IMG/VR virus record: IMGVR_UViG_3300022822_000014
Location: 26,406-90,405 of that record
Reading direction: 5' to 3' (one strand)
Source: a virus
Length of the DNA: 64,000 nucleotides
The notes under the pieces were generated by a model that saw only the letters and a list, made by a program, of their open reading frames with translations, did not search any database and was not told where the DNA came from. The position numbers were made by a program, and so were the translations under genes. This document shows, one piece after another, positions 2,256-51,471 of this stretch. Within the stretch, counting starts at the first letter, position 1; each line of letters begins with the position of its first letter.

Positions 2256-2265
2256 CAAACAAAAT

Positions 2266-2334: not shown

Positions 2335-2359
2335 CAAACATTAACTTAATTATTAACTC

Positions 2360-2869
2360 ATGAAAAATCGTTATGACAAAACACTAGTGGTTGATTCAAG
2401 CTACATTGCAAGAAGCATCATTACTACCGAAAGAGCTTTCGTGATTTCGTATAAAGGTAATGCTGATGTAGTAGTTGAACACCCTGAAACATTTGGAGTT
2501 GTAAACCCCAAACTAGAAATTTTTAAACCATCTGTTATTAGAGTCTACACTTATGTAAAACTAGAATACCAGAAAGTAGCTCTAACAAGAGATAATGTAT
2601 TTAAAAGAGATGGACATGAATGCGTATACTGCGGTTGTAATAACAGAAAAACACTTACATTAGATCACGTAGTACCACAATCAAAAGGAGGACCAAACAC
2701 TTGGGATAACTTAGTAACTGCTTGTAAAGTTTGTAATAACGAAAAAGCAAATTTAACATTAAAAGAATACGGTAGGGAAATACCTAAACCAAAAAGACCA
2801 CACTACTTAATGTTATTAAAGAAAACAAGTTTTATACCTGAAGAGTGGAAACCTTACCTATTATTCTAG
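2360..2869 (+). CDS. HNH endonuclease
   Basis: This 169-residue protein has a classic HNH nuclease core: a zinc pair CVYCGC (about 89-94), the metal-binding motif LDHVVPQSKGG (about 102-112), then WDNLVTACKVCNNEK (about 116-130). The N-terminal 70 residues are a beta-rich region common in small bacterial HNH proteins. A free-standing gene inside a phage tRNA cluster is probably mobile (homing). It sits between tRNA-Trp and tRNA-Cys; the stop is seven bases before tRNA-Cys. Confidence 0.9.
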   Translation: MKNRYDKTLVVDSSYIARSIITTERAFVISYKGNADVVVEHPETFGVVNPKLEIFKPSVIRVYTYVKLEYQKVALTRDNVFKRDGHECVYCGCNNRKTLTLDHVVPQSKGGPNTWDNLVTACKVCNNEKANLTLKEYGREIPKPKRPHYLMLLKKTSFIPEEWKPYLLF

Positions 2870-2875
2870 GTAGAT

Positions 2876-2945
2876 GAGTGAGTTGTTCTTGGAGAACAGT
2901 TGGTTTGCAAAACCAATAGAGTAGGTTCGATTCCTACCTTACTCT
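2876..2945 (+). tRNA. tRNA-Cys(GCA)
   Basis: Acceptor GAGTGAG/CTTACTC, D arm GTTC/GAAC, anticodon stem TTGGT/ACCAA with loop TTGCAAA, T stem GTAGG/CCTAC. Confidence 0.88.
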
Positions 2946-2985
2946 CAAAAATAAACATAAAAAAATTAGGATATACAGTAAATAG

Positions 2986-2997
2986 TTCGTATATTTA
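2986..2997 (+). promoter_or_regulatory. Host-like promoter box inside the tRNA cluster
   Basis: TTCGTATATTTA is identical to the box upstream of many protein genes here (for example 21043 and 62560). It lies about 40 bases before tRNA-Leu(TAG) and probably starts transcription of the second half of the RNA cluster. Confidence 0.5.
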
Positions 2998-3037
2998 TAT
3001 ATAATAAAGATAGGTTCATTGACATATTGGATAAATT

Positions 3038-3110
3038 GCTCGTGTGGTGGAATGGTATACACGGCCGTCTTAGAAACGGTCTTTTGCAGGTTCGAGTCCT
3101 GCCATGAGTA
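3038..3110 (+). tRNA. tRNA-Leu(TAG)
   Basis: Acceptor GCTCGTG/CATGAGT, D arm GTG/CAC, anticodon stem GCCGT/ACGGT with loop CTTAGAA, T stem GCAGG/CCTGC. As with tRNA-Leu(TAA), the variable loop is short (CTTTT). Confidence 0.87.
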
Positions 3111-3127
3111 CAAAAACTGTTCGAGTA

Positions 3128-3164
3128 CTAATTATGACTTATCACTCTAATTAGGAAGTAGTGG
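3128..3164 (+). ncRNA. Predicted H-type pseudoknot after tRNA-Leu(TAG)
   Basis: CTAATTA (3128-3134) pairs perfectly with TAATTAG (3148-3154). TCACT (3142-3146) in the loop can pair with AGTGG (3160-3164) five bases downstream of stem 1. Confidence 0.42.
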
Positions 3165-3252
3165 GCAAATATATTAAAGGTTATTAATCAATAAACTACC
3201 TAGAATAGTTCTGATACTGGACTTGAGATTAAAGCGGTTGGATCCCGAAGTG

Positions 3253-3304
3253 TTAACAGGTTTATAAGGGTAAGCTAAGTTACTGTTAGTGCAAAATTAT
3301 AGCT
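3253..3304 (+). ncRNA. Predicted pseudoknot overlapping a tRNA-like acceptor
   Basis: TTAACAG (3253-3259) pairs with CTGTTAG (3283-3289). AGCTA (3273-3277) in the loop is complementary to TAGCT (3300-3304). TAGCT is also the 5' acceptor strand of the tRNA-like element at 3301, so the two folds would compete. The interval 3165-3252 has no gene; a small AACTA/TAGTT hairpin lies in it. Confidence 0.35.
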
Positions 3305-3403
3305 GTGAAATCATTGGTTGATAGCACCTCTCCAGGGTTAAGTTTAACGATAAGTTCACTTAGAATTGTAAAGCCGGATTAGGTTCGAATCCTAACATAG
3401 CTA
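3301..3403 (+). ncRNA. tRNA-like element with an oversized core (103 nt)
   Basis: The 3' part is a normal T arm (TTAGG/CCTAA, loop TTCGAAT) followed by acceptor CATAGCT, which pairs with AGCTGTG at 3301-3307. The 71 bases between do not give a clear D arm plus anticodon arm. ATAGCACC followed by TCTCC recalls the D/anticodon boundary of a normal tRNA, after which about 30 extra bases follow. It may be a tRNA with an insertion, a decayed tRNA or a tRNA mimic. Confidence 0.4.
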
Positions 3404-3415
3404 CAAAATTAAAAT

Positions 3416-3568
3416 GGTCCTATATATAGTAGTGGATCGCTCCTACTACTATCAGTGGGATAACGTTACGGCTTTTGGTTTAACACTTCTTATACTAGTT
3501 TGAAGAGAAAAGTTAAAACATTAGAGTAAGTAACTTATCAAAGGTTGGTTCGATTCCAACTAGGGCTA
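3416..3568 (+). ncRNA. tRNA-like element with an oversized core (153 nt) and internal pseudoknot
   Basis: GGTCCTA (3416-3422) pairs over seven positions with TAGGGCT (3561-3567), next to a good T arm (GTTGG/CCAAC, loop TTCGATT). The interior holds ATAGTAG (3426-3432) pairing with CTACTAT (3446-3452), while TCCTA (3441-3445) can pair with TGGGA (3456-3460). No canonical anticodon arm is visible. A tmRNA is unlikely at this size. Confidence 0.4.
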
Positions 3569-3576
3569 CAAAATAC

Positions 3577-3630
3577 AAGTTAGACGTTCGAAGGAGAACT
3601 TAAAAGGTATTCAAACCACCATTCTAACTT
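3577..3630 (+). ncRNA. Stem-closed inter-tRNA segment
   Basis: AAGTTAGA (3577-3584) pairs perfectly with TCTAACTT (3623-3630). A GTTC/GAAC hairpin and a weak GGT/ACC hairpin lie inside. Noncoding. Confidence 0.35.
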
Positions 3631-3637
3631 ATAATAT

Positions 3638-3736
3638 TAAGAGAGTTAGTGAAGCTAGGACAAGCTGGAATAGGATAAAGGTTTATCCCCAGTCCCAGAT
3701 ATTTCTAGAAACCTCGAAAGACCCGAAGCTCTCTTA
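3638..3736 (+). ncRNA. Stem-closed inter-tRNA RNA before tRNA-Thr (about 99 nt)
   Basis: TAAGAGAG (3638-3645) pairs perfectly with CTCTCTTA (3729-3736). Inside, CTGG...CCAG encloses GGATAA/TTATCC (3673-3688), whose loop AGGTTT could pair with AAACCT (3709-3714). The interior also carries CCCGAAG, a heptamer that recurs near 3244 and at 3956. Confidence 0.42.
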
Positions 3737-3741
3737 TATTT

Positions 3742-3813
3742 GCCTCTAAAGCATAAATGGTAATGTGCCCGGTTTGTACCCGGAGGAACAGGGTTCGATT
3801 CCTTGTAGAGGCT
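3742..3813 (+). tRNA. tRNA-Thr(TGT)
   Basis: Acceptor GCCTCTA/TAGAGGC, anticodon loop TTTGTAC closed by CCGG/CCGG, T stem CAGGG/CCTTG. Confidence 0.86.
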
Positions 3814-3814
3814 C

Positions 3815-3873
3815 AAAAGTAAATTAACCTCGCTTAACGATAATATCACCGAGGGAGGTCAATGTTTACTTTT
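3815..3873 (+). ncRNA. Stem-closed spacer between tRNA-Thr and tRNA-Gly
   Basis: AAAAGTAAA (3815-3823) pairs perfectly with TTTACTTTT (3865-3873). ACCTC pairs with GAGGT and CCTCG with CGAGG inside. It fills the whole spacer between the two tRNAs. Confidence 0.42.
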
Positions 3874-3876
3874 AAT

Positions 3877-3948
3877 GCGAATATAGTATAGTGGCTATTA
3901 TGTCTGGCTTCCAACCAGAGGACGAGAGTTCGATTCTCTCTATTCGCT
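3877..3948 (+). tRNA. tRNA-Gly(TCC)
   Basis: Acceptor GCGAATA/TATTCGC, anticodon stem TCTGG/CCAGA with loop CTTCCAA, T stem GAGAG/CTCTC. Confidence 0.9.
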
Positions 3949-3955
3949 CGAACAG

Positions 3956-4031
3956 CCCGAAGTACAAGGGAACGAAGATAGAGATTACAGATATGAGTTG
4001 AAATAACAAATACCTTCGGGTACACTCATAT
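3956..4031 (+). ncRNA. Strong predicted H-type pseudoknot after tRNA-Gly
   Basis: CCCGAAG (3956-3962) pairs perfectly with CTTCGGG (4014-4020). ATATGAGT (3991-3998) inside the loop pairs perfectly with ACTCATAT (4024-4031), three bases beyond stem 1. This is the clearest of the cluster pseudoknots (7 and 8 pairs, no mismatch). The stretch 4032-4102 has no recognised feature. Confidence 0.5.
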
Positions 4032-4102
4032 AGGCGTGGATGCTCTCCAAATCGTAGGTTGGTACAGTTGGTAACTCTGGGAATATTACAAAAGTTACAA
4101 AT

Positions 4103-4174
4103 GCTCCTGTCGACAACTGGCTAAGTCACTACCCTTTCACGGTAGAGTAGAGGGATCGATACCCTCCAGGAGTA
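4103..4174 (+). tRNA. tRNA-Glu(TTC)
   Basis: Acceptor GCTCCTG/CAGGAGT, anticodon stem CTACC/GGTAG with loop CTTTCAC, T stem GAGGG/CCCTC. Confidence 0.87.
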
Positions 4175-4179
4175 CTTTT

Positions 4180-4371
4180 ATTAAAAATTCTTTGCTTAAA
4201 GATAGACATAGTGAAAGCATTCCCTGATAGAAAAGGCGAGAAAGACCACAATTGAAAGTGGATAGCTATAGACTGTATCAGCAGTTGTGTTTATTGTAAA
4301 GGTATTGGTGATTAGGTTCATAGCGTTAAGAGCGTGATATTACACTGAAATTTGTACAAAGAGTTTTTAAT
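4180..4371 (+). ncRNA. Structured noncoding RNA, about 190 nt, closed by a 15-pair stem
   Basis: ATTAAAAATTCTTTG (4180-4194) pairs with CAAAGAGTTTTTAAT (4357-4371) over 15 positions with a single wobble. Inside, CTGATA/TATCAG form a stem containing a CCAC/GTGG hairpin, and the sequence GCTAT in that loop can pair with ATAGC further on, again a pseudoknot. There is no ORF, T arm or anticodon. It exactly fills the gap between tRNA-Glu and tRNA-Ala. I do not recognise the family; RNase P RNA and tmRNA hallmarks are absent. Confidence 0.5.
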
Positions 4372-4376
4372 AATTT

Positions 4377-4449
4377 GGGGATATGGTGAAATTGGCTATC
4401 ATAGTAGATTTGCATTCTACTGTTCCGAGTTCGAGCCTCGGTTTCTCCA
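4377..4449 (+). tRNA. tRNA-Ala(TGC)
   Basis: Acceptor GGGGATA/TTTCTCC with one mismatch, anticodon stem GTAGA/TCTAC with loop TTTGCAT, T stem CCGAG/CTCGG. Confidence 0.87.
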
Positions 4450-4462
4450 CGAGATATCTACC

Positions 4463-4519
4463 CTAGGTAGGTGTTTTACTCAAGGTTTTATTGGTTGTAC
4501 CTCAACAACCAATACCTAG
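4463..4519 (+). ncRNA. Nested stem segment between tRNA-Ala and tRNA-Asp
   Basis: CTAGGT (4463-4468) pairs with ACCTAG (4514-4519), enclosing a nine-pair hairpin ATTGGTTGT/ACAACCAAT (4490-4513). The outer 3' strand shares two bases with tRNA-Asp. Confidence 0.42.
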
Positions 4520-4589
4520 CTTCATAGTTAAACGGCTATAATGTCGCCCTGTCACGGCGAAGTTCGGAGTTCGATTCTCCGTGGAGCTG
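4518..4589 (+). tRNA. tRNA-Asp(GTC)
   Basis: Acceptor AGCTTCA/TGGAGCT, D stem GTTA/TAAT, anticodon stem TCGCC/GGCGA with loop CTGTCAC, T stem CGGAG/CTCCG. Confidence 0.88.
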
Positions 4590-4595
4590 CATATT

Positions 4596-4664
4596 GCGGT
4601 TTGGTGTAATTGGTAGCATGAGGGGCTCATAACCCCAAGGCGAGGTTCGAGTCCTTAATCCGCT
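4596..4664 (+). tRNA. tRNA with anticodon CAT (Met, fMet or Ile2)
   Basis: Acceptor GCGGTTT/AATCCGC has a T-T mismatch. The anticodon loop CTCATAA is closed by GGGG/CCCC; T loop TTCGAGT. The ends are uncertain by one base; shifting the 3' end by one would give an encoded CCA at 4666-4668. Confidence 0.75.
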
Positions 4665-4669
4665 TCCAA

Positions 4670-4720
4670 AATAGTTTATAGGTCGTTCTGTCCTTGAGTT
4701 CTATTTCAAAACTCTAAAAA
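4670..4720 (+). repeat. Inter-tRNA element, copy 2 (pseudoknot-capable)
   Basis: Second copy of the element at 737-795. AATAG (4670-4674) pairs with CTATT (4701-4705), GAGTT (4696-4700) with AACTC (4710-4714). It again sits directly upstream of a tRNA gene. Confidence 0.5.
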
Positions 4721-4726
4721 AGGCTA

Positions 4727-4801
4727 GGTCATGTAGCTAAGTTTGGTAAGGCAGCTCGCTCATAACGAGAAGATTCATAGGTTCGAATCCTATCATGACC
4801 A
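4727..4801 (+). tRNA. tRNA with anticodon CAT (Met, fMet or Ile2)
   Basis: Acceptor GGTCATG/CATGACC, anticodon stem CTCG/CGAG with loop CTCATAA, T stem ATAGG/CCTAT. Last gene of the cluster. Confidence 0.85.
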
Positions 4802-4868
4802 CATTTAATTTTATCCAATAAGTTAAACATTGAAATACCTTTAAAAAACAGATAACATTAGTTTCTTC

Positions 4869-9006: not shown

Positions 9007-10674
9007 ATGATACAATTAGGTATATCTGCTTTTTATCACAATTCAGCAGCCTGTCTGGTTAAAGACGGTAAAGTTCTATATGCTGTAGAAGAAGAAAGGT
9101 TTACAGAAATAAAACATGATGCTTCCTTCCCGATCAACTCAATTAAATGGTTACTTAAAGAATCAGGAATAAAACTAACAGACATAGATGAAGTTTGTTG
9201 GTATGAAAACCCAGATAAAAAGAAAAATAGGGTAGTTACTACGTTTAAAAAAAGACCAATTAGTACATTTTTTCAAAAACGTAAATTTCTTAAAGAACAA
9301 GAAGCCAATTCACCAAAAACCCTTTTACAGAATATCGGATATACCGGTAAAATTTCATATACCGATCATCACCTCTCCCATGCAGCTTTCACCTATTATA
9401 CCTCAAATTTTCAAACCTCTGCAATATTAACAATAGACGGAGTAGGGGAATGGGCTACAGCAACAATCGCTGAAGGTAGAGGGGATAGAATTTACAACCA
9501 TTTATCAATTAATTTCCCTAATTCTCTAGGAATGTTTTACTCAACCTTTACAGCCTACTTGGGATTCAAACCTAATGAAGGAGAGTATAAGGTAATGGGT
9601 CTTGCACCATATGGAGATTCAAGTCAATTTAAAGACAAGCTTAAAAGTATCTTTTTCACTACAGATAATAAATTCTGGATAGATCAGAAGTATTTTACAT
9701 GGGAATACTCAGATAAAATAATGTTTAATAAAAATCTATGCCGGTTACTGGGCATTCCCCCCCGTCTGCCGGAAGAACCTATAACCCATGAACATCAAAA
9801 CTTAGCAGCAGCTTTGCAAGAGGTATATGAAGAGAGATTTCTTGTATTAGTAGAAAAAGCTAAACTTATCACAGGATCTGAAAATTTATGTATAGGAGGA
9901 GGATGTGCTTATAATGGAGTAGCAAACTTTAAAGCATATAAATACTTTAAACATTTACATATACCATTTGCACCCTCTGATGCAGGTTCAGCCATAGGAG
10001 CGTGTCTCTACCAATATGAAGGAAAGAGCCAAGAGAACTCATCCCCTTACTTAGGCCCAGAGTACACAGACACGGAGGTAAAGAGAGAACTTAGAAAATA
10101 TGAAGATAGGGTACTTTCATTTCATCTTACGGATGAAAAGATTATTAAAAAAACAGCTGAACTTTTAATTGCACAAAATATAGTAGCATGGTTTCAAGGT
10201 CAAATGGAATTTGGAGCAAGAGCATTAGGAAATAGATCTATATTAGCTTCTCCTGCAAATCCTAAAATGAGAGAAAAGCTTAATTATGTAATTAAAAAAA
10301 GAGAAGGTTTTAGACCATTTGCACCTTCAGTATTAGAGGAAGACGGAAATAAATGGTTCGGGACAACAGAACCAGTCCCTTATATGAACGTAGTCTCTTT
10401 TGCTAGAACATCACACAATGTAATCCCCTTCCCCGCTGCCACCCATATAAATAAAACTTGCAGAGTACAGACAGTAAGTAAAAAGCAAAATGAAAAATAT
10501 TATAATCTACTATCGGAAATGAAAAGAGTAACAGGAGCAGGAGTACTGTTAAATACTTCTTTTAATTTAAAGGACCAGACAATCACTATGTCACCTAAAC
10601 AAGCCATAGAGAGATTTATAGATTCAGAAATAAACTACCTGGTAATAAATAATTTTTTAATCAAGAAGATATGA
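9007..10674 (+). CDS. Carbamoyltransferase (NodU/CmcH/TobZ family)
   Basis: This 555-residue protein would transfer a carbamoyl group from carbamoyl phosphate to a hydroxyl of a sugar or nucleoside, via carbamoyl-adenylate. The ASKHA-fold N-terminal domain is clear: LGISAFYHNSAACLVKDG (2-20), EEERFTEIKHDASFP, DHHLSHAA (about 121-128, metal ligands), IDGVGEWAT, and EYKVMGLAPYG (about 198-208). The C-terminal YrdC-like half has GQMEFGARALGNRSILA (about 399-415) and REGFRPFAPSVL. Length matches the family. In a phage it may decorate a virion glycan or a modified base. It overlaps the next small gene by ATGA. Confidence 0.92.
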   Translation: MIQLGISAFYHNSAACLVKDGKVLYAVEEERFTEIKHDASFPINSIKWLLKESGIKLTDIDEVCWYENPDKKKNRVVTTFKKRPISTFFQKRKFLKEQEANSPKTLLQNIGYTGKISYTDHHLSHAAFTYYTSNFQTSAILTIDGVGEWATATIAEGRGDRIYNHLSINFPNSLGMFYSTFTAYLGFKPNEGEYKVMGLAPYGDSSQFKDKLKSIFFTTDNKFWIDQKYFTWEYSDKIMFNKNLCRLLGIPPRLPEEPITHEHQNLAAALQEVYEERFLVLVEKAKLITGSENLCIGGGCAYNGVANFKAYKYFKHLHIPFAPSDAGSAIGACLYQYEGKSQENSSPYLGPEYTDTEVKRELRKYEDRVLSFHLTDEKIIKKTAELLIAQNIVAWFQGQMEFGARALGNRSILASPANPKMREKLNYVIKKREGFRPFAPSVLEEDGNKWFGTTEPVPYMNVVSFARTSHNVIPFPAATHINKTCRVQTVSKKQNEKYYNLLSEMKRVTGAGVLLNTSFNLKDQTITMSPKQAIERFIDSEINYLVINNFLIKKI

Positions 10675-20448: not shown

Positions 20449-21035
20449 TGTCAAAAGCACTCCAAAAACTAACCCATAAGTATGAATTCCTTAAATTAGA
20501 ATTAGAGGAAACTAAAGATGAACTTGCAACTTACCTAAGTAAGTGGAATAAATACTTTGGTAAATACTTCGCAGATAAAAATGCGGAAATGTGGGTTAAT
20601 GAAGAGACAGGTGAAATGAAAAAAGAACCACCAGGAGAAGAACTAACTACTAACCGAAAATCTCGAAAAACTAAACCAGCAAAACTTAAAAAACTTTATA
20701 AACACCTTTCCAAATATATTCACCCAGATAAAGGAGGAAAGCAAGAAGACTTCAAGAAAATGAAACAATCCTACGAAGAGGAGGATTTATTAGAGCTACT
20801 TAAGTTTGCAGGTTTATATAAAATAGATTTTGAATTAGAAAAAGATGATGAGCTTTTAATCGAAAAGACTTGTTCTAATTTTCAACAGCAGATAGAAAAC
20901 CATAAAGGATCTCTTGCTTGGGCATATTTTACAGGAGATAAAAGTAAAAAACTAGCAGTACTCCAAATGTTAGAAAAACACTTGGGAAAAGAAATAAAAA
21001 AAGAAGATTACCCTCCTGAATTGTTGGAGGATTAG
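20448..21035 (+). CDS. J-domain (DnaJ-like) protein
   Basis: 195 residues. A coiled N terminus (1-45) is followed by KLKKLYKHLSKYIHPDKGG (about 76-94) and EDFKKMKQSYEEEDLLELLKFA, the HPD loop and helices of a J domain, which stimulates DnaK-type ATPases. Phages use such proteins to redirect host Hsp70. The gene lies upstream of DNA polymerase and GroES/GroEL, consistent with a set of chaperone functions. Confidence 0.78.
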   Translation: MSKALQKLTHKYEFLKLELEETKDELATYLSKWNKYFGKYFADKNAEMWVNEETGEMKKEPPGEELTTNRKSRKTKPAKLKKLYKHLSKYIHPDKGGKQEDFKKMKQSYEEEDLLELLKFAGLYKIDFELEKDDELLIEKTCSNFQQQIENHKGSLAWAYFTGDKSKKLAVLQMLEKHLGKEIKKEDYPPELLED

Positions 21036-21042
21036 AATATAA

Positions 21043-21054
21043 TTCGTATATTTA
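21043..21054 (+). promoter_or_regulatory. Host-like promoter box
   Basis: TTCGTATATTTA, 22 bases before the DNA polymerase ATG, which follows an AAAGGTTATAA leader. Confidence 0.55.
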
Positions 21055-21076
21055 AGTAGACTTAGAAAGGTTATAA

Positions 21077-23440
21077 ATGCAGATAGAAAAAAAATACTAC
21101 ACCGTCCAAGATGAAGAGACCTTAAGACTCTTATTCCAACATATTAAAAACTCAGATGTAATTGCAGTCGATACGGAAACTACAGGACTAAACCCTAGAA
21201 AAGATAAAATTATAGGATGGTCAGTGTCCGGTGAAGAAGGGGTTGGATTTTACTTACCAACCTTAGTTTGGGATTACCACAGAGAAGAACTTATATTACA
21301 GTCTATAGAAGGTCAATCCACTGAAGTAATCTCTAAAAATTTAATAAAGATGCTTAAAGGAAAAAAACTTGTATTTCACAATGCTTCCTTTGACGTACAG
21401 TTTATAAAAAATTATTTTGGAGTAGACCTTATAGAAGATATTTGGGTTGATACTGGTTTACTAGTTCATACAGTTTACGAAGAAGGAGCTTTTGGCTTTG
21501 GAAATCCATTTGGATTAAAATCTATAGCGATAATGAACCAGGAAGCTTTAGGTTTAAACGTTCAAGAAGCCGCCAATCAGGAGCAACTTGAATTAAAAGA
21601 CTCAATTAAAAAGAATGGAGGTTCGGTTACAAAAGAAAGTTACGAAATCTTTAAAGCAGACCTTAGTATTCTTAGTAAATATGCTAGTGCGGATACGGAT
21701 TTAACATTGCGTATATGTAACCTGTATTTAGGGAAGCTTAAAGAGGAAGGCTTAGAGAAATTCTTTTTCGAAGATGAAGTTATGCCAATCTACCGGGAAG
21801 TAACAGTCCCAATGGAAGCATATGGTGTGGACTTAGATGTTGATTTAATTAATAAGATTTACGATGAAATTTTAATAGATCAAGTAGAGAATAAAGAAAT
21901 TGTGATGAAATCTCTACTAGATATTCCTGCAGTAAAAAGATGGGTAGTAGATACTGCAGCAGATAACTACCCTGTTTCTCATAAAGGTAATTGGGCACAG
22001 AGTTTAGTCGAGAGGTATTCCTTACCCCTTTCAAAGTCTGAGAAGACAGGAAAGTATTCTTTAACACAGAAGAATATCGAAGCATTTGAACCTACCAATG
22101 AAAAAGAAGAGAAAGTAAAGCAATTTCTATTAACCGGAGACGAGTCCTTTATAGACGAGTTAGAAAGACACAGAATTTCCATGGCATTATGGAAAGAAAG
22201 TAACGACGGAGAGTATTTAAATATTCAGTCGAAAAAACATCTGGGCGAGATCGTTTTCGGTTATATGGGAATTGAACCTAAAGTAAAAGGAGCTAATACT
22301 AAATCCGGTAGAGATAAATTCGATATGGATATGGTAAAGGAGCTTGCCAAAGAACATCCATGGGCAGAAAATCTACGTGTTTATAATAAATTATTAAAGA
22401 TTAAATCTACCTATGTAGACAGATTTAGAGATAGACAAGAAGATGGAAAATATTACTTTTACTTTAAGCAGAACGGTACAGTCTCTGGACGATATGGCTC
22501 AGATGCTCAGCAATTACCTAAACCGTTAGAACCCGGTGATGATGCACCAATCATACTGAAATATGTGAACATAGTTAGAAAGTTCATGATTGCCGGAAAA
22601 GATAGAAAGGTAATTGATTCAGATTACGAATCATTAGAACCACATTGTTTTGCTTCAATAACAGGAGATGTAGCTCTTCAAGAGATCTTCAATAAAGGAT
22701 GGGATTTCTACTCTACAGTTGCTATTAAGACGGAAAGGTTAGACGAAGATAGAGCTAGATTTCCCAACGGAGTATCAGCAGATAAAAAGGCAGATAATTA
22801 CCTTAAGAAATTAGATCCAAACGCCCGTAATAAAGCAAAAGCCTACTCACTAGGAATTGCTTACGGAATGGAAGCATATGCTCTTAAGATGACTTTAGAT
22901 ATAGATCAAAAAACAGCTGAGAAATTAGTACAGGGGTATCTAGATGGTTTTCCACAGCTTAAACAATGGAGAGAAGATTCAAGATTGCAAGTAAAAGCTC
23001 ATGGGTACATTAAAAATTACTTAGGACGAGTTAGACACTTACCCAAAGTACAAAAAACCTATATTAAGTTCCAGGATAGAATACTAGATTGGAGATTTAG
23101 AAAAGAATTAGAATCAAGATACGGAAAAGTAGTTGTTTTACAGGCTTATAGGGATTATCGAAATGGGCTTAACAACTGTCTAAACTTCCAACTCCAATCA
23201 TTAGCAGCAGCTGTTGTAAACCGAGCAGCATTAGTAATTAACCGTAAAGCCAGAGAGTTAGGAATAGATGCTCAGGTGCAAGCACAGGTTCATGATCAAC
23301 TTATTATAAATGTTCATGAAAAAGATGCAGAAATGTTCGCACCTTATGTACAGGAGATTATGATAAACACAACCATACTTCCTGGGGTAACATTAAAAGC
23401 TCCACCTGAGATAGCAAACAATTGGGCAGAAGGCCACTGA
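21077..23440 (+). CDS. DNA polymerase I (family A) with 3'-5' exonuclease domain
   Basis: 787 residues, the probable phage replicative polymerase. The exonuclease domain starts VIAVDTETTGLNP (about 32-44) with KKLVFHNASFDVQFIKNYF as Exo II. Polymerase motifs: SGRYGSDAQQLPKP, motif A KVIDSDYESLEPHCFASITGD (Asp kept; usual SQIELR replaced by ESLEPH), motif B RNKAKAYSLGIAYGMEAY, motif C QVHDQLII (VHDQ in place of VHDE). There is no 5' nuclease domain. The acidic residue expected after VHD is Gln, which is notable although the main catalytic Asp is present. Confidence 0.92.
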   Translation: MQIEKKYYTVQDEETLRLLFQHIKNSDVIAVDTETTGLNPRKDKIIGWSVSGEEGVGFYLPTLVWDYHREELILQSIEGQSTEVISKNLIKMLKGKKLVFHNASFDVQFIKNYFGVDLIEDIWVDTGLLVHTVYEEGAFGFGNPFGLKSIAIMNQEALGLNVQEAANQEQLELKDSIKKNGGSVTKESYEIFKADLSILSKYASADTDLTLRICNLYLGKLKEEGLEKFFFEDEVMPIYREVTVPMEAYGVDLDVDLINKIYDEILIDQVENKEIVMKSLLDIPAVKRWVVDTAADNYPVSHKGNWAQSLVERYSLPLSKSEKTGKYSLTQKNIEAFEPTNEKEEKVKQFLLTGDESFIDELERHRISMALWKESNDGEYLNIQSKKHLGEIVFGYMGIEPKVKGANTKSGRDKFDMDMVKELAKEHPWAENLRVYNKLLKIKSTYVDRFRDRQEDGKYYFYFKQNGTVSGRYGSDAQQLPKPLEPGDDAPIILKYVNIVRKFMIAGKDRKVIDSDYESLEPHCFASITGDVALQEIFNKGWDFYSTVAIKTERLDEDRARFPNGVSADKKADNYLKKLDPNARNKAKAYSLGIAYGMEAYALKMTLDIDQKTAEKLVQGYLDGFPQLKQWREDSRLQVKAHGYIKNYLGRVRHLPKVQKTYIKFQDRILDWRFRKELESRYGKVVVLQAYRDYRNGLNNCLNFQLQSLAAAVVNRAALVINRKARELGIDAQVQAQVHDQLIINVHEKDAEMFAPYVQEIMINTTILPGVTLKAPPEIANNWAEGH

Positions 23441-23474
23441 TAAAATATAAAAGAGTTTGTTTATTGAAATAAAT

Positions 23475-23486
23475 TTCATATATTAT
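23475..23486 (+). promoter_or_regulatory. Host-like promoter box
   Basis: TTCATATATTAT with TTTG about 22 bases upstream (near 23457). ATG of the next gene follows within six bases, so the transcript may be leaderless. Confidence 0.5.
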
Positions 23487-23491
23487 TTCTA

Positions 23492-23677
23492 ATGAATCAG
23501 ATTATAGAAATACACGGAAATCTTTACACAGTAATAAGAACTATTAAAGAGAGTCAGGTAAATGAAAATATCGACGGATTAAAAGCTTGGGTTGAGTATT
23601 TACATTGTGATAGATCATTTAAAAACAACGGACAATATTATATTGTTAAAGACATAACAGATATAGAATTTGAATAA
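23492..23677 (+). CDS. Small hypothetical protein
   Basis: 61 residues, beta-rich (IIEIHGNLYTVIRTIKES). It lies two bases upstream of groES and shares its promoter. Not recognised. Confidence 0.45.
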   Translation: MNQIIEIHGNLYTVIRTIKESQVNENIDGLKAWVEYLHCDRSFKNNGQYYIVKDITDIEFE

Positions 23678-23679
23678 TT

Positions 23680-23988
23680 ATGAGTAAAAAGTTACAACCA
23701 ACAAATGACCGTATCCTTCTAAAACCGATTGACGAAGGAGAACAGATGTACGGTAATATCGTAATCCCGGATATGGGGAAGGAAAAACCTGAAATGGGCG
23801 AAGTACTAGCAGTAGGACCTGGAAGACAGTCCGAGTTAGATCCTTCAAAACTCATTACAGTTAGGTCCTGTAAAGTAGGAGATATCGTACTTGTTCCCAA
23901 ATTAGGAACTTTACGAATTGACTTCGAAGGACAGGAGTATTATATCGCACAAGATCGTGAAATTTTAGCAGTTATAAAAGAAGCATAA
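23680..23988 (+). CDS. groES: GroES co-chaperonin
   Basis: 102 residues. N-terminal KLQPTNDRILLKPID (4-18), a mobile loop containing YGNIVIPDMGKEKPEMGEVLAVGPG (about 24-48), and the C-terminal GDIVLVPKLGTLRIDFEGQEYYIAQDREILAVI, matching bacterial GroES almost end to end. It would cap the GroEL encoded one base downstream. Phages commonly carry only one of the pair. Confidence 0.92.
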   Translation: MSKKLQPTNDRILLKPIDEGEQMYGNIVIPDMGKEKPEMGEVLAVGPGRQSELDPSKLITVRSCKVGDIVLVPKLGTLRIDFEGQEYYIAQDREILAVIKEA

Positions 23989-23989
23989 T

Positions 23990-25630
23990 ATGAGTAAGAA
24001 TATAACATTTTCAAAAGAAGCAAGGAATAAACTTGCAGCCGGAGTAGATAAATTAGCAAATGCAGTAACATCTACATTAGGACCTTCAGGTCGAAACGTT
24101 ATTATAGAACAAGACAACGGCTTGCCGGTATCTACTAAAGATGGTGTGACTGTAGCAAAGTCCATTACATTAAAAGACAAGGTAGAAAATTTAGGAGCAC
24201 AGATTGTGAAACAAGCAGCAATTAAAACAGGAGAACAGGCCGGAGATGGTACTACTACCTCCACCCTACTAGCTCAATCAATTCTATCAGAAGGATTAGA
24301 CCGAATCAAACTAGGATCTAACTCAGTAGAAATTAAAAGAGGAATTGATAAAGCAGTAAAAGAAGTTGTAGAGTTTCTTGAAGGAGAATCTAAAGAGATC
24401 ACGGACGAAGAACAGTTAAAACAGGTCGCTACTATATCAGCAAACAACGACACTGAAGTTGGTGAGCTAATTGCAACAGCAATGGATAAAGTAGGACGTG
24501 ATGGTGTTATCACAATCGAAGAATCAAAAACAGGAGAAACGTATTTAGAAACGGTTGAGGGTGTTCAATTCAACAGGGGTTATAAGTCTCCGTACTTTGT
24601 TACAGATAATAGCACTATGACAGCTGTTCTTCAAGATCCGTTGATACTAATCACAGATAAACGACTAAATCAAATCAAAGAGTTACTACCTGTCTTAGAA
24701 GGCGTTTCACAACAAACTAAGTCTCTTCTTATTATTGCAGAAGATATAGACGGAGAGGCACTCTCTACCCTAGTAGTAAACAAGATGAGAGGTATTCTTA
24801 ATTGTGCTGTAGTAAAAGCTCCTGAATTTGGGGATAGAAGAAAAGCAATGTTAGAAGATATCGCCACCCTTACAGGAGGAAAAGTAATATCAACTGAAAA
24901 AGGAATGAGACTGGATAAATTTCAACCAGACTGGTTAGGTAAAGCAGGCAAGATCACTATTACAAAAGATACGACTACAATCATCGATGCAAAAGGAGAC
25001 GAAGAAGCAATCAATATAAGAGTAGAAGAAATTAAAACTCAAATTGATGAAACAACATCTCCTTATGAGAAAGAGAAATTACAGGAGAGATTATCTACCT
25101 TTATTGGAGGTGTCGCAATTGTACATGTAGGAGGACATACTGAGGTAGAGATGAAAGAGAAAAAAGATAGAGTAGATGACGCTTTACACGCAACCAAAGC
25201 AGCTTTAGAAGAAGGTATTGTGCCCGGTGGAGGAATTGCATTATTAAATGCTTCTAAGATGTTAGTATCAAAACTTGAAGATGTAGAAGGTGATGAAGCA
25301 GTGGGCTATGAGATTATAGTAAGCGCTATCGAAAGACCGTTCTATAAGATATTAGAAAATGCAGGATACGATCATGATAGGATTGGGGATATTGAAGAAG
25401 CAATTATAGAGAAAAACGACTTCTGGCAAGGGTATAATCCCAGAACAGTAACACTAGTAGATATGTTTAACAGTGGAATTATCGATCCAGCTAAAGTAAC
25501 TAGACTAGCATTAGAAAATGCAGCATCTGTTGCAGGAACGTTATTAATAACTGAGGCAGTAGTCTCAAACGGAAAAGAGAAAAAAAACAATGATATGGGA
25601 GGGATAGATCCTAACATGCTATTAGGTTAA
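23990..25630 (+). CDS. groEL: GroEL chaperonin (60 kDa)
   Basis: 546 residues, full length. Equatorial and ATP-binding motifs: [13 protein letters not shown] (about 29-41), [11 protein letters not shown] (about 48-58), [17 protein letters not shown] (about 79-95, catalytic Asp). The signature [15 protein letters not shown] lies near 405. Intermediate and apical domains are intact ([21 protein letters not shown]). The C terminus ends [13 protein letters not shown] instead of the GGM repeats. It forms one transcription unit with groES. It probably folds a phage protein that the host machine handles poorly. Confidence 0.95.
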
Positions 25631-46266: not shown

Positions 46267-46296
46267 TGTTCTGGTGGGATTAATAAATAAAAAATT

Positions 46297-46731
46297 ATGA
46301 AAGAATACAAAGTAAAGGTATGTAATGACAGAACAGACTGGTATAACCTAGAAGATAAACGCCACCGAGAAGATGGACCTGCTGTAGAGCTTGCAAACGG
46401 ATATAAATATTACTACATTAATGGTAAACTTCATAGAGAAGATGGACCTGCTGTAGAGTGTTCAAACGGAGATAAATATTACTTCATTAATGGTAAGCGT
46501 CATAGAGAAGATGGACCTGCTGTAGAGTGGGCGAATGGAGATAAATCTTACTACATTAATGATAAACTTCATAGAGAAGATGGACCTGCTGTTGAAGATG
46601 TAGATGGATATAAATATTACTACATTAAGGATAAAAATTTAACCGAAGAAGAATTTAATAATAGAACTAAATCCTGTAAAAATAAGATTGTAGAAATTGA
46701 AGGTATTAAATATAAACTATCTAAAGTATAG
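46297..46731 (+). CDS. HREDGPA-repeat protein 1 (4 repeats)
   Basis: 144 residues, first of twelve tandem paralogues. Layout: N-terminal cap MKEYKVKVCNDRTDWYNLEDK, four repeats of 23 residues with core HREDGPAVE.ANG.KYYYING(K), and C-terminal cap LTEEEFNNRTKSC...EIEGIKYKLSKV. The repeats resemble MORN/YwqK-type beta-hairpin units and probably stack as a solenoid. A four-base AGTT spacer leads to the next copy. Function unknown. Confidence 0.75.
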   Translation: MKEYKVKVCNDRTDWYNLEDKRHREDGPAVELANGYKYYYINGKLHREDGPAVECSNGDKYYFINGKRHREDGPAVEWANGDKSYYINDKLHREDGPAVEDVDGYKYYYIKDKNLTEEEFNNRTKSCKNKIVEIEGIKYKLSKV

Positions 46732-46735
46732 AGTT

Positions 46736-47170
46736 ATGAAAGAATACAAAGTAGAAGTTACAGAAAATAGTACAAAATGGTATAATTCAAAAGATCAGCT
46801 ACATAGAGAAGATGGACCTGCTATTGAGGATGCAGATGGTAGTAAATATTTCTATATTAACGATAAACTTCATAGAGAAGATGGGCCTGCTATGGAGTGG
46901 GCAAATGGAGATAAATATTACTATATCAATGATCTACGTCATAGAGAAGATGGACCTGCTATAGAGCTTGCAAACGGGGATAAATTTTACTTCAGTAACG
47001 GTCAACTTCATAGAGAAGATGGACCTGCTATAGAGTGGTCAAATGGAAGTAAACATTACTACATTAATGATAAAAATTTAACCGAAGAAGAATTTAATAG
47101 TAGAACTAAAACCTGTGAGGGTAAGGTGGTAGAAATTGAAGGAGTTAAATATAAACTATCTAAAGTATAG
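46736..47170 (+). CDS. HREDGPA-repeat protein 2 (4 repeats)
   Basis: 144 residues from ATG 46736; the frame is open upstream but the conserved GAGTT-ATG-AAAGAATAC context fixes the start. Cap KEYKVEVTENSTKWYNSKDQ, four 23-residue repeats, cap ending EIEGVKYKLSKV. Confidence 0.72.
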   Translation: MKEYKVEVTENSTKWYNSKDQLHREDGPAIEDADGSKYFYINDKLHREDGPAMEWANGDKYYYINDLRHREDGPAIELANGDKFYFSNGQLHREDGPAIEWSNGSKHYYINDKNLTEEEFNSRTKTCEGKVVEIEGVKYKLSKV

Positions 47171-47174
47171 AGTT

Positions 47175-47471
47175 ATGAAAGAATACAAAGTAAAGGTATA
47201 TAATAACAGAACAGAATGGTATAACATGGAAGGTCAACTCCATAGGGAAGATGGTCCTGCTGTAGAGTATGCAAACGGAGATAAATATTACTACATTAAT
47301 GGGAAGTATCACAGAGAGGATGGTCCTGCTATGGAGTGGAGAAACGGATATAAATGTTACTACATAAACGGGAAGTGTCTAACTAAAAAAGAATTTGACA
47401 ATAGAACCAAATCTTGTGAAAATAAGATTGTAGAGATTGAAGGAGTAAAGTATAAACTATCTAAAGTATAG
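47175..47471 (+). CDS. HREDGPA-repeat protein 3 (2 repeats)
   Basis: 98 residues, exactly 46 (two repeats) shorter than copies 1 and 2. Caps are conserved; the C-terminal cap begins KCLTKKEFDNRTKSC, a variant shared with copy 5. Confidence 0.72.
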   Translation: MKEYKVKVYNNRTEWYNMEGQLHREDGPAVEYANGDKYYYINGKYHREDGPAMEWRNGYKCYYINGKCLTKKEFDNRTKSCENKIVEIEGVKYKLSKV

Positions 47472-47475
47472 AGTT

Positions 47476-47841
47476 ATGGTGGAATACAAAGTAGAAGTTT
47501 CAGAGTACAGTACAAGATGGTATAGTTCAAAAGATCAGCTACACAGAGAAGACGGACCTGCAGTAGAGTGTATAAACGGAACTAAATATTACTACATTAA
47601 TGATAAACTTCATAGAGAAGATGGACCCGCTATAGAGTATGCAGATGGAAGTAAACATTACTACATTAATGATAAACGTCATAGAGAGGACGGACCTGCT
47701 ATAGAGTGGTCAAATGGAGATAAATATTACTATATTGATGATAAAGCTTTAACCGAAGAAGAATTTAATAATAGAAACAAATCTTATCAAAATAAGATTG
47801 TAGACATTGAAGGAATTAAATATAAACTATCTAAGGTATAG
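47476..47841 (+). CDS. HREDGPA-repeat protein 4 (3 repeats)
   Basis: 121 residues, starts MVEYKVEVSEYSTRWYSSKDQ, three repeats. The N cap is closest to copy 10 (EVSEHSTRWYNSKDQ). Confidence 0.72.
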   Translation: MVEYKVEVSEYSTRWYSSKDQLHREDGPAVECINGTKYYYINDKLHREDGPAIEYADGSKHYYINDKRHREDGPAIEWSNGDKYYYIDDKALTEEEFNNRNKSYQNKIVDIEGIKYKLSKV

Positions 47842-47845
47842 AGTT

Positions 47846-48280
47846 ATGAAAGAATATAAAGTAAAAGTATATAGTGACAGAACAGAATGGTATAACTTAG
47901 AAGGTCAACTACACAGAGAAGATGGTCCCACTATAGAGTGTTCAAACGGATATAAATCTTACTATGTTAATGGTAAATACCACAGAGAAGATGGACCTGC
48001 TGTAGAGTGGGCAAATGGAAGTAAGTTTTACTACATTAATGACAAACGCCACAGAGAGGACGGGCCTGCTGTAGAGTGGCCAAACGGATATAAGGACTAC
48101 TATATAAACGATAAACTTCATAGAGAAGATGGGCCTGCTATGGAGTGGCCAAACGGAGATAAACATTACTACATAAACGGGAAGTGTCTAACTAAAAAAG
48201 AATTTGACAATAGAACCAAATCTTGTGAAAATAAGATTGTAGAGATTGAAGGAGTAAAGTATAAACTAACTAAGGTATAG
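47846..48280 (+). CDS. HREDGPA-repeat protein 5 (4 repeats)
   Basis: 144 residues, four repeats; its C-terminal cap is nearly identical to that of copy 3, suggesting recombination between copies. Followed by a nine-codon frame (48285-48314) and an unrelated gene. Confidence 0.72.
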   Translation: MKEYKVKVYSDRTEWYNLEGQLHREDGPTIECSNGYKSYYVNGKYHREDGPAVEWANGSKFYYINDKRHREDGPAVEWPNGYKDYYINDKLHREDGPAMEWPNGDKHYYINGKCLTKKEFDNRTKSCENKIVEIEGVKYKLTKV

Positions 48281-48317
48281 AGTTATGAAATTTAAAGACA
48301 TTAAATTCAAATAAATA

Positions 48318-48800
48318 ATGTACTGGTTTAAAAGAAAATACACACAAATAAAAAGAACCCTATCATTCCTCCCAATTATTTGGAAGGGATATGACAGGGA
48401 TTATATGTACGCAATAGATTTATTCAAACACCAACTTGGAAGGTTAGCAACTACCTTAGAAGGCGAAACAGCATACGGTTTAGATTCTCTTTTAAAAGCC
48501 CAACGCATAAGAACCACAATTAGACTATTAGATAAGGTCTACGATGATTTTTATGGATGTGAATATCAATCTAAAATAGAAAAAATTTACGGTGAAGATG
48601 TATATTATTTTGAATTTGAAGATAACGGTAAAGGAGATGATTCAGGATATTTAAAGCATAAATACGAATATTGGAACAATGCAGATGAAATCAGAGAATT
48701 AAATCAATTCCTTTTTCACGAATCAAATACAAAACAAAAGAAAGCCCATCGCATTCTTTGGAAATATATAGAACATAATATACAGTCATGGTGGGATTAA
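48318..48800 (+). CDS. Hypothetical protein inserted in the repeat array
   Basis: 160 residues, unrelated to the repeat proteins. Starts YWFKRKYTQIKRTLSFLPIIWKG and contains YDRDYMYAIDLFKHQLGRLA and a Lys-rich C-terminal helix (KKAHRILWKYIEHNIQSWWD). Related-looking proteins occur in phages; role unknown. It divides the array into 5 + 7 copies. Confidence 0.55.
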   Translation: MYWFKRKYTQIKRTLSFLPIIWKGYDRDYMYAIDLFKHQLGRLATTLEGETAYGLDSLLKAQRIRTTIRLLDKVYDDFYGCEYQSKIEKIYGEDVYYFEFEDNGKGDDSGYLKHKYEYWNNADEIRELNQFLFHESNTKQKKAHRILWKYIEHNIQSWWD

Positions 48801-48813
48801 TAAATAAAAGATT

Positions 48814-49179
48814 ATGAAAGAATATAAAGTAAAGGTATATAATAACAGTACAAAATGGTTTAACTTAGAAGGTAAACTTCATAGAGAGGACGGACCTGCT
48901 GTAGAGTGGGCAAATGGAGATAAATCTTACTACCTTAATGGTAAACACCACCGGGAAAATGGTCCTGCTGTAGAAATTAAAGATGGAACTAAATATTACT
49001 ACATAAACGGTAAATTTCATAGAGAAGATGGCCCTGCAGTAGAGTGGCCAAACGGATATAAGTCATACTATATTAATGGTATGGAATTAACCCAAGAAGA
49101 ATTCAATAACAGAAACAAATCTTGCATAGACAAAATTGTAGAAATTGAAGGAGTTAAATATAAACTAACTAAGGTATAG
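48814..49179 (+). CDS. HREDGPA-repeat protein 6 (3 repeats)
   Basis: 121 residues. The first 60 residues are almost the same as those of copy 11 (NNSTKWFNLEGKLHREDGPA), a sign of recent duplication. One repeat has HRENGPAVEIKDG, also present in copy 8. Confidence 0.72.
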   Translation: MKEYKVKVYNNSTKWFNLEGKLHREDGPAVEWANGDKSYYLNGKHHRENGPAVEIKDGTKYYYINGKFHREDGPAVEWPNGYKSYYINGMELTQEEFNNRNKSCIDKIVEIEGVKYKLTKV

Positions 49180-49183
49180 AGTT

Positions 49184-49618
49184 ATGAAAGAATATAAAGT
49201 AAAGGTATATAGTGACAGAATAGAATGGTACAACTTAAAAGGTCAACTCCACAGAGAAGAGGGACCTGCTGTAGAGTATGCAAACGGATATAAGGCGTAC
49301 TACATAAACGGGAAACGACATAGAGAAGACGGTCCTGCTATTGAATATAGAGATGGAGCTAAAGCTTATTACATTAATGATAAACGTCATAGAGAAGATG
49401 GTCCTGCTATTGAACATGCAGATGGAGGTAAATGGTACTACATTAACGGTAAACCACATAGAGAAGATGGCCCTGCTATTGAACATGCAGATGGAGGTAA
49501 ATGGTACTTCATTAACGATAAAGCTTTAACCGAAGAAGAATTCAATAATAAGCACAAATCCTGTGAAAATAAGGTGGTAGAAATTGAAGGTATTAAATAT
49601 AAACTAACTAAGGTATAG
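49184..49618 (+). CDS. HREDGPA-repeat protein 7 (4 repeats)
   Basis: 144 residues, four repeats; two adjacent repeats are near-identical (EHADGGKWY(Y/F)IN), consistent with a very recent repeat duplication at 49400-49520. Confidence 0.72.
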   Translation: MKEYKVKVYSDRIEWYNLKGQLHREEGPAVEYANGYKAYYINGKRHREDGPAIEYRDGAKAYYINDKRHREDGPAIEHADGGKWYYINGKPHREDGPAIEHADGGKWYFINDKALTEEEFNNKHKSCENKVVEIEGIKYKLTKV

Positions 49619-49622
49619 AGTT

Positions 49623-49988
49623 ATGAAAGAATATAAAGTAAAGGTATATAGTGACAGAATAGAATGGTACAACTTAAAAGGTCAACTCCATAGAGAGGAT
49701 GGGCCAGCATCAGAGAACGCAGACGGAGATAAATGTTACTACATTAATGGTAAACGCCACCGGGAAAATGGTCCTGCTGTAGAAATTAAAGACGGTTTTA
49801 AATTTTACTATATTAATGATAAACTTCATAGAGAAGATGGCCCTGCTATTGAACATGCAGATGGAGGTAAATGGTACTTCATTAACGATAAATTATTAAC
49901 CGAAGAAGAATTCAACAACAGAAACAAATCTTGCATAGACAAGATTGTAGAAATTGAAGGAGTTAAATATAAACTAACTAAGGTATAG
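49623..49988 (+). CDS. HREDGPA-repeat protein 8 (3 repeats)
   Basis: 121 residues, three repeats. N cap identical to copy 7 (VYSDRIEWYNLKGQ) and last repeat identical to that of copy 7 (EHADGGKWYFIND), pointing to gene conversion. Confidence 0.72.
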   Translation: MKEYKVKVYSDRIEWYNLKGQLHREDGPASENADGDKCYYINGKRHRENGPAVEIKDGFKFYYINDKLHREDGPAIEHADGGKWYFINDKLLTEEEFNNRNKSCIDKIVEIEGVKYKLTKV

Positions 49989-49992
49989 AGTT

Positions 49993-50358
49993 ATGAAAGA
50001 ATACAAAGTAAAAGTACATAATGACAGAACAGACTGGTATAACTTAGAAGGTCAACGCCACAGAGAAGAGGGACCTGCTGTAGAATATGCAGACGGATAT
50101 AAGGCGTACTACATAAACGGGAAACGACATAGAGAAGATGGGCCTGCTATAGAGTGGGCAGACGGAGATAAATATTACTACATAAACGGTAAATTTCATA
50201 GAGAAGATGGTCCTGCTATAGAGTATGCAGATGGAAGTAAACATTACTACATTAATGATATACAGATAACCAAAGAAAAATTTGACAATAGAAACAAATC
50301 TTGCATAGACAAGATTATAGAAATTGAAGGAGTTAAATATAAACTATCTAAAGTATAG
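49993..50358 (+). CDS. HREDGPA-repeat protein 9 (3 repeats)
   Basis: 121 residues, three repeats, N cap HNDRTDWYNLEGQRHREEGPA. C cap has the variant DIQITKEKFDNRNKSC. Confidence 0.72.
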   Translation: MKEYKVKVHNDRTDWYNLEGQRHREEGPAVEYADGYKAYYINGKRHREDGPAIEWADGDKYYYINGKFHREDGPAIEYADGSKHYYINDIQITKEKFDNRNKSCIDKIIEIEGVKYKLSKV

Positions 50359-50362
50359 AGTT

Positions 50363-50728
50363 ATGAAAGAATATAAAGTAGAAGTTTCAGAGCACAGTAC
50401 AAGATGGTATAATTCAAAAGATCAGCTACATAGAGAAGATGGACCTGCTATAGAGTGGGCAAACGGAACCAAGTCCTACTATATAAACGGGAAGCATCAC
50501 AGAGAGGATGGGCCTGCTATGGAGACCGCAGATGGAGAAAAACATTACTACATAAATGGTCAACTTCACAGAGAGGAGGGGCCTGCGGTAGAGTGGGTTG
50601 ATGGAAGTAAAGGCTATTATATAAACGGGAAGTGTCTAACGAAAAAAGAATTCAATAATAGAAACAAATCTTGTGAAAATAAAATTGTAGAAATTGAAGG
50701 AGTAAAGTACAAACTAACTAAGGTATAG
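50363..50728 (+). CDS. HREDGPA-repeat protein 10 (3 repeats)
   Basis: 121 residues from ATG 50363 (upstream frame open but context fixes the start). Three repeats; C cap starts KCLTKKEFNNRNKSC. Confidence 0.72.
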   Translation: MKEYKVEVSEHSTRWYNSKDQLHREDGPAIEWANGTKSYYINGKHHREDGPAMETADGEKHYYINGQLHREEGPAVEWVDGSKGYYINGKCLTKKEFNNRNKSCENKIVEIEGVKYKLTKV

Positions 50729-50732
50729 AGTT

Positions 50733-51029
50733 ATGAAAGAATACAAAGTAAAGGTATATAATAACAGTACAAAATGGTTTAACTTAGAAGGTAAACTTCA
50801 TAGAGAGGACGGACCTGCTGTAGAGTGGGCAAATGGAGATAAATCTTACTACCTTAATGGAAAGCTACATAGAGAAGATGGTCCTGCTCTTGAGGATGTA
50901 GACGGTTATAAATCTTACTCTATTAATGGTGAATATTTAACCCAAGAAGAATTCAATAACAGAAACAAATCTTGTGAAAATAAGATTGTAGAGATTGAAG
51001 GAGTAAAGTACAAACTAACTAAGGTATAG
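50733..51029 (+). CDS. HREDGPA-repeat protein 11 (2 repeats)
   Basis: 98 residues, two repeats; N-terminal half nearly identical to copy 6. Confidence 0.72.
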   Translation: MKEYKVKVYNNSTKWFNLEGKLHREDGPAVEWANGDKSYYLNGKLHREDGPALEDVDGYKSYSINGEYLTQEEFNNRNKSCENKIVEIEGVKYKLTKV

Positions 51030-51033
51030 AGTT

Positions 51034-51471
51034 ATGAAAGAATATAAAGTAAAGGTACATAGTGACAGAACAGAATGGTATAACATGGAAGGTCAACTTC
51101 ATAGAGAAGATGGTCCTGCTATAGAGTATGCAAACGGAGATAAATATTACTACATTAATGATAAACTTCATAGAGAAGATGGTCCTGCTATAGAGTGGGC
51201 GAATGGAGATAAATATTACCTCATTAATGATAAGCGTCATAGAGAAGATGGTCCTGCTATTGAATATGTAAATGGATATAAAGCTTACTACATTAATGAT
51301 AAAGGTTTAACGGAACAAGAATTCAATGACAGAAACAATCCAACATTAGACAAAGCAGCAGAATATTATGCACACAATTACTTTGATATGCACGAAACTA
51401 ATAGCTACAAAGAACTAAAAAAAGGATTTATAGCTGGTGTTGAATGGGAGAGAAAAACAAATAAAGTATAA
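51034..51471 (+). CDS. HREDGPA-repeat protein 12 (3 repeats, different C terminus)
   Basis: 145 residues. Cap and three repeats as in the other copies. The C-terminal cap is replaced after LTEQEFNDRN by a different helical segment (LDKAAEYYAHNYFDMHETNSY and FIAGVEWERKTNKV). This end resembles C-terminal helices found in other phage small proteins, so the copy looks like a fusion closing the array. Confidence 0.72.
   Translation: MKEYKVKVHSDRTEWYNMEGQLHREDGPAIEYANGDKYYYINDKLHREDGPAIEWANGDKYYLINDKRHREDGPAIEYVNGYKAYYINDKGLTEQEFNDRNNPTLDKAAEYYAHNYFDMHETNSYKELKKGFIAGVEWERKTNKV

Follow-up and report, generated by a model that had tools for sequence, protein, structure and literature searches.

Variable leucine-rich repeat (LRR) receptors, such as the VLRs of lampreys, combine a repeat scaffold with variable exposed positions and a variable number of repeats. 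Polyimmunity loci of bacterial polymorphic toxin systems are tandem arrays of tightly spaced, functionally parallel genes on the same strand, among which LRR members occur and whose number varies between close relatives (PMC3482391). In T4-like phages, segmental amplification of anti-defence genes by recombination produces tandem copies, the number of which changes fast (PMC9391042, PMC13096335). MORN repeats (PF02493; variant PF07661) are 23-residue beta-hairpin units in tandem with the signature motifs GxG and YEGEW, and MORN proteins act as protein-interaction modules (PMC7725318).

Here we analyse a window of 64,000 nucleotides (bases 26406-90405) within a 90.4-kb metagenomic virus record, IMGVR_UViG_3300022822_000014, which contains a tandem array of genes built from a repeat named HREDGPA. 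The nearest cultured relatives of the phage are the Flavobacterium phages vB_FspM_immuto of the genus Immutovirus (68% identity for DNA polymerase and 65% for a DUF932 protein). Since these relatives infect Flavobacterium and have genomes of about 160 kb, the host of the phage is probably a flavobacterium and the virus record is probably incomplete. Like polyimmunity loci, the array is composed of tightly spaced, parallel genes on one strand, and gene number differs in a sister phage whose flanks are 98-99% identical. Unlike them, it is located in a phage, has no known toxin, and consists of a single short-repeat family, whereas polyimmunity loci encode globular immunity proteins. T4-like amplifications yield near-identical copies that raise dosage, whereas the copies of the array are diversified at specific sites. 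By analogy, the array may work like a polyimmunity locus or like an extended anti-defence gene amplification. A description of such tandem repeat-protein arrays was not found in the papers searched.

Organization of the array

The array comprises twelve intact ATG-initiated ORFs in tandem with 38 repeats in total (Table 1). A sequence-only reading of the window had described twelve tandem paralogues with end caps and fixed lengths, and the ORFs bear out this description. Every repeat is exactly 23 aa long (38 of 38). The end caps are conserved: the N-cap is 22 aa in all twelve genes, and the last repeat together with the C-cap makes up 53 aa in each gene but gene 12, in which three repeats are followed by a different, longer C-terminus. 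The spacer AGTT, which had been called constant, is found as TAG-AGTT-ATG at all ten direct gene junctions, but the array is interrupted between genes 5 and 6, where an unrelated ORF splits it into blocks of five and seven genes. The encoded proteins are small (11-17 kDa). The blocks reported to be shared by genes 6 and 11, 3 and 5, and 7 and 8 are real, with exact runs of 116, 103 and 68 nt, respectively. These are the three longest among the 66 gene pairs, for which the median is 26 nt. The Tandem Repeats Finder score reached 1647 inside the array and did not exceed 62 in the rest of the window. In the array region, no known RNA families were found, a Bacteroidota-type promoter pattern was no more frequent than expected by chance, and a DNA-level search against annotated phages gave no match. 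Searches of PADLOC, NCBIfam and PHROGs with the array proteins returned nothing useful.

Table 1 Features of the HREDGPA array (window positions)
Feature	Position	Strand	Length (aa)	Repeats	Remarks
Leader before gene 1	46273..46296	+			GGTGGGATTAATAAATAAAAAATT; same as 3' end of inserted ORF; similar in sister L026
Gene 1	46297..46731	+	144	4	
Gene 2	46736..47170	+	144	4	
Gene 3	47175..47471	+	98	2	
Gene 4	47476..47841	+	121	3	
Gene 5	47846..48280	+	144	4	Pfam DUF6745, 27.5 bits (cut-off 27)
Inserted unrelated ORF	48318..48800	+	160		Between genes 5 and 6; predicted helical
Leader before gene 6	48790..48813	+			Overlaps end of inserted ORF
Gene 6	48814..49179	+	121	3	116 nt identical with gene 11
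Gene 7	49184..49618	+	144	4	
Gene 8	49623..49988	+	121	3	
Gene 9	49993..50358	+	121	3	
Gene 10	50363..50728	+	121	3	
Gene 11	50733..51029	+	98	2	
Gene 12	51034..51471	+	145	3	Swapped C-terminus

The structure model of the inserted ORF is helical and had no match in the PDB. The leader GGTGGGATTAATAAATAAAA is common to genes 1 and 6, and the inserted ORF ends with it at its 3' end; in front of gene 1 it is probably a relic of an earlier junction. An obligatory partnership between the inserted ORF and the repeat genes was considered and rejected. Members of the inserted-ORF family are also present in phages without the HREDGPA repeat, distant relatives being found in nine repeat-free loci, and the repeat genes of another phage, G003, stand without it. 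The inserted ORF is therefore probably a passenger. Between gene 5 and this ORF, after the usual AGTT, lies a ten-codon mini-ORF (MKFKDIKFK; 48285-48314), and a similar stretch is retained in the sister record L026 and in contig L010.

Family and predicted fold of the repeat

The fixed framework of the repeat is HREDGPA-E-NG-K-YYIN-G. Weak matches to DUF6745 (PF20530) were obtained for 33 of 34 aligned proteins (best 6e-9), but they were short and mostly under the curated cut-off: among genes 1, 5, 11 and 12, for which the curated score was tested, only gene 5 passed, and the other three scored below 27 bits. We found no described function for DUF6745 and no paper naming either HREDGPA or DUF6745. 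MORN_2 matched 3 of the 34 members (best E 0.003), and no Pfam MORN match was above cut-off. Beta-flower/Tubby-like families (PF21784-PF21786, CL0395; PMC10584680) were not among the matches of the 34 members at E<=0.01. Sequence searches against the PDB, run with a single member as well as with a profile, gave nothing meaningful.

Structure prediction, proposed in the sequence-only reading, was carried out for gene 1 with AlphaFold2 on a 34-sequence alignment (pLDDT 82.7, pTM 0.69). The top PDB matches of the model in Foldseek were MORN1 crystal structures (E 1.7e-4, probability 1.0), and further matches were radial spoke, junctophilin and SET7/9 structures, all of them MORN proteins. The predicted fold thus appears MORN-like, but the TM-scores to the PDB entries are low (0.42-0.45). 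Among predicted viral structures, the model matched unnamed phage proteins, proteins of Agrobacterium phage Atu_ph07 and of Celeribacter phage P12053L, and giant-virus proteins, some of which are named MORN. The array shares with MORN repeats the tandem 23-residue unit, predicted here to form a beta-hairpin, but not the signature motifs. At the start of MORN strand 1, GxG is absent and nearly all repeats have GPA; in strand 2, YEGEW is absent and the region reads xKxYYIN with two variable sites, so that the equivalent second-strand positions are variable in the array. Judging from the model, the HREDGPA repeat appears to be MORN-like in fold and not MORN by sequence.

Variable positions and selection

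Over the 38 repeats, positions 1-3, 5, 6, 9, 13 and 15 are invariant, whereas positions 10, 14, 16 and 23 are the most variable and position 11 is less so. In the window array, pN was 0.58 and pS 0.32 at the four most variable positions, against 0.09 and 0.50 at the remaining ones; these values were obtained by counting differences, which are close to saturation, among paralogues that recombine, a test that does not by itself prove positive selection and leaves some room for relaxed constraint at the sites. The four sites defined on the window were then applied to seven other phage loci, and in all seven pN exceeded pS at these sites and was lower than pS elsewhere. Bootstrapping of the window and six loci supported pN>pS at the four sites, except for L018 against local pS (P=0.22). 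The residues at the four sites are strongly biased: Trp is enriched 10-fold, Cys and Tyr about 6-fold, and His 3.6-fold, and Asp is also frequent, while Lys, Val and Met are absent and Asn and Gln are scarce. As judged from the sequences, this is what a binding surface carried by a fixed frame would look like. The positions outside the hypervariable sites are under purifying selection. For the sequence-only reading, untranslated genes, or a stable, identical copy number across divergent phages with no variation at exposed positions, would have counted against its proposal. The strong purifying selection outside the four sites indicates that the array is translated, and the variable, presumably exposed positions do vary.

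Turnover of the array among related phages

Copy number is not stable either. The sister record (L026/L013, G002) is 98.2-99.2% identical to the window over 11 kb up to the array, and the other shared sequence that was compared is mostly 97-99% identical. In its first block there are four genes (2, 2, 3 and 2 repeats), against five in the window (4, 4, 2, 3 and 4 repeats); the sister contig stops inside its array. Sister repeats differ from the nearest window repeat at 3-16 of 69 bases, and the inserted ORF differs by 3.7%. Gene and repeat numbers thus vary in the sister-phage comparison suggested earlier. The continuing duplication and gene conversion proposed in the sequence-only reading gain support from the shared blocks and from this reorganization between 98-99% identical flanks. 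Array content is likewise different in contigs L018 and L019, whose sequences agree to 99.5% over 5.3 kb, a difference that assembly collapse may have produced.

No repeat match was found in 26 of 30 related records, and one further record had a weak match. Contig L010, otherwise without a match longer than 300 bp to the 90.4-kb record, carries one repeat gene, the inserted ORF (1.9% different) and one more repeat gene. The presence of a near-identical cassette in an otherwise dissimilar contig suggests its recent transfer. A diversity-generating retroelement was considered as the source of variation and rejected, since reverse transcriptase (RVT_1) was absent from the four array-bearing records searched, which are themselves incomplete. 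Given this absence and a weak RecA-family match in the phage, recombination is the likelier source of the changes in the array.

A second array of leucine-rich repeats

The phage has a second tandem array at record bases 20908-24484 (G000:C1; L218:908-4484), about 2-5.5 kb before the window start. It consists of five genes with a 20-residue leucine-rich repeat and conserved caps, and is split by one unrelated ORF of 249 aa. The x-L-x-L-x stretch is the classical ligand-facing strand of LRR proteins. Its positions 13, 15 and 17 are among the most variable of the repeat, with pN>pS in three phages. The sister phage G002 has the LRR array too, and so does G003, in which HREDGPA genes stand on both sides of it. 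LRR matches occurred in 5 of 19 repeat-bearing records (that of the window included) and, among the 26 related records that had no strong match to the repeat, in 1; this association is weak because three of the five LRR records are relatives and L018 and L019 are nearly the same phage. The occurrence in one genome of two unrelated scaffolds with the same organization and a variable, likely binding face is the strongest argument for a binding repertoire. Like the lamprey VLRs, the HREDGPA array has a repeat scaffold with variable, presumably exposed positions and a varying number of repeats, and the second array is itself of the LRR type; the likeness is an analogy only, neither somatic assembly nor a receptor function being known on the phage side. 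The N-terminal LxxLLEN stretch of the LRR proteins (MIKLIDLLEN...) is reminiscent of T4-type capsid-targeting peptides. Should this likeness hold, packaging and injection of the LRR proteins would be conceivable.

Distribution of the repeat

Many bacterial genomes contain the HREDGPA repeat, usually in genes that stand singly. Groups of at least three repeat genes were found at 11 of 18 viral loci, of which L020, L021 and L022 appear to be one phage sampled three times, compared with 5 of 77 bacterial-genome loci. Among the five bacterial groups, L125 looks like a phage contig. In another of the five, from Duganella qianjiadongensis (L126:4927-7863), an array of seven genes with at least two repeats each lies directly behind a MobC/NikA-type mobilisation gene. 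This distribution would fit use by mobile elements facing different hosts. Several phage and bacterial members have exchanged C-terminal parts. BLASTP against the other phage loci revealed no non-repeat family common to the surroundings of the arrays, and the PHROG hits of array neighbours were mostly singletons, with several endonucleases and two Lar-like proteins.

The contigs L020-L022, from different metagenomes, carry arrays of at least 13 HREDGPA genes with identical ORFs. One of their proteins has a C-terminal extension of 233 aa without Pfam or PHROG match. A Neisseriaceae MAG contig (RXKI01000080.1) carries 12 and 5 HREDGPA-like ORFs with at least two repeats at two loci (L178 and L186).

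Possible functions of the array

We give about an even chance to the explanation that the array is a phage-borne repertoire of small binding proteins, shuffled by recombination and selected, against variable host targets. Each protein would be a short stack of beta-hairpin repeats of MORN-like fold between conserved end caps, and in every repeat the fixed framework would present four or five hypervariable residues (at positions 10, 14, 16 and 23 and, to a lesser degree, 11) that may make up an exposed, protein-binding surface. Homologous recombination between copies would alter copy number, repeat number and combinations of variants, and selection for new binding properties would retain some of them. 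The targets would most likely be proteins that vary from one host to the next, defence proteins for example, and the array would then provide inhibitors in advance, in the manner of a bacterial polyimmunity locus. The array proteins are probably cytoplasmic. The sequence-only reading had proposed a reservoir of antigenic or binding diversity, or inhibitors matching several host targets. Antigenic diversity finds no support, there being no virion role and no secretion signal seen by eye. Indirect support for binding diversity comes from the hypervariable sites, their pN>pS, their binding-site-like residues and the second, unrelated array. We keep a set of inhibitors as the leading interpretation, with the qualification that no array member matches models of defence or anti-defence proteins.

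It is unlikely that the proteins act, as in a true polyimmunity locus, by neutralizing toxins or exclusion proteins that come from other mobile elements or from phages infecting the same cell, instead of host defence proteins. The gene organization, the presence of LRR proteins in polyimmunity loci (PMC3482391) and the mobilisation gene adjoining the Duganella array are consistent with such a role, yet no toxin gene was found among the neighbour families, a weak test with so few neighbours of known function.

We consider it likewise unlikely that the array is a non-adaptive expansion, in which recombination makes tandem repeats grow and shrink and the variable sites are simply unconstrained. 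The repeats recombine readily, as the blocks common to copies indicate, and most relatives do without the array. However, the twelve ORFs and 38 repeats are all intact and in frame under strong purifying selection outside the four sites, the residue bias (10-fold for Trp, no Lys) is far from drift, the same sites are variable in seven other phage loci, and the phage genome retains about 5 kb for these genes.

A structural role, in which the repeats would self-assemble or link phage or host structures in the infected cell and the variants would form hetero-assemblies, seems improbable. MORN1 proteins dimerize and build meshes (PMC7725318), and the exchanged C-terminal parts would agree with such a role, but a shared assembly would tend to keep its interfaces conserved, whereas at the variable sites copies differ from one another, as do sister phages, and the genes are missing from most relatives. 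That each repeat reads one or two units of a linear polymer (DNA, RNA, glycan or peptide) in a modular way, like the repeats of TALE or PUF proteins, is very improbable: despite the exact unit length, varying unit number, few variable residues per unit and nearby glycosyltransferase genes, many genes have just two or three units, and the variable residues, for the most part Trp, Tyr, His, Asp and Cys, with Lys absent and Asn and Gln scarce, are to our knowledge unlike the known nucleic-acid codes.

If the array is indeed a diversified stock of inhibitors, phages would already possess the variety needed to face host defences and would not have to evolve their inhibitors one by one. The signature of the array, short-repeat genes in tandem whose frame is fixed and whose variable sites are few, could then be used to find anti-defence loci among unknown phage genes, and its members could be used as baits to fish for unknown host factors. 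More tentatively, some phages and mobilisable elements may keep a repertoire of intracellular, hypervariable binders made of repeat proteins, with two or more unrelated scaffolds in one genome, that are made by recombination and selected at binding-face residues; such a repertoire would be a parasite-side counterpart of the variable repeat immune receptors of hosts.

Other genes of the phage

The window also contains 17 tRNA genes at 411-4802, among which lies a homing-endonuclease-type gene (1283-1963). The phage further encodes a Nol-like carbamoyltransferase (9007-10674) and a GroEL-type chaperonin (23990-25630).
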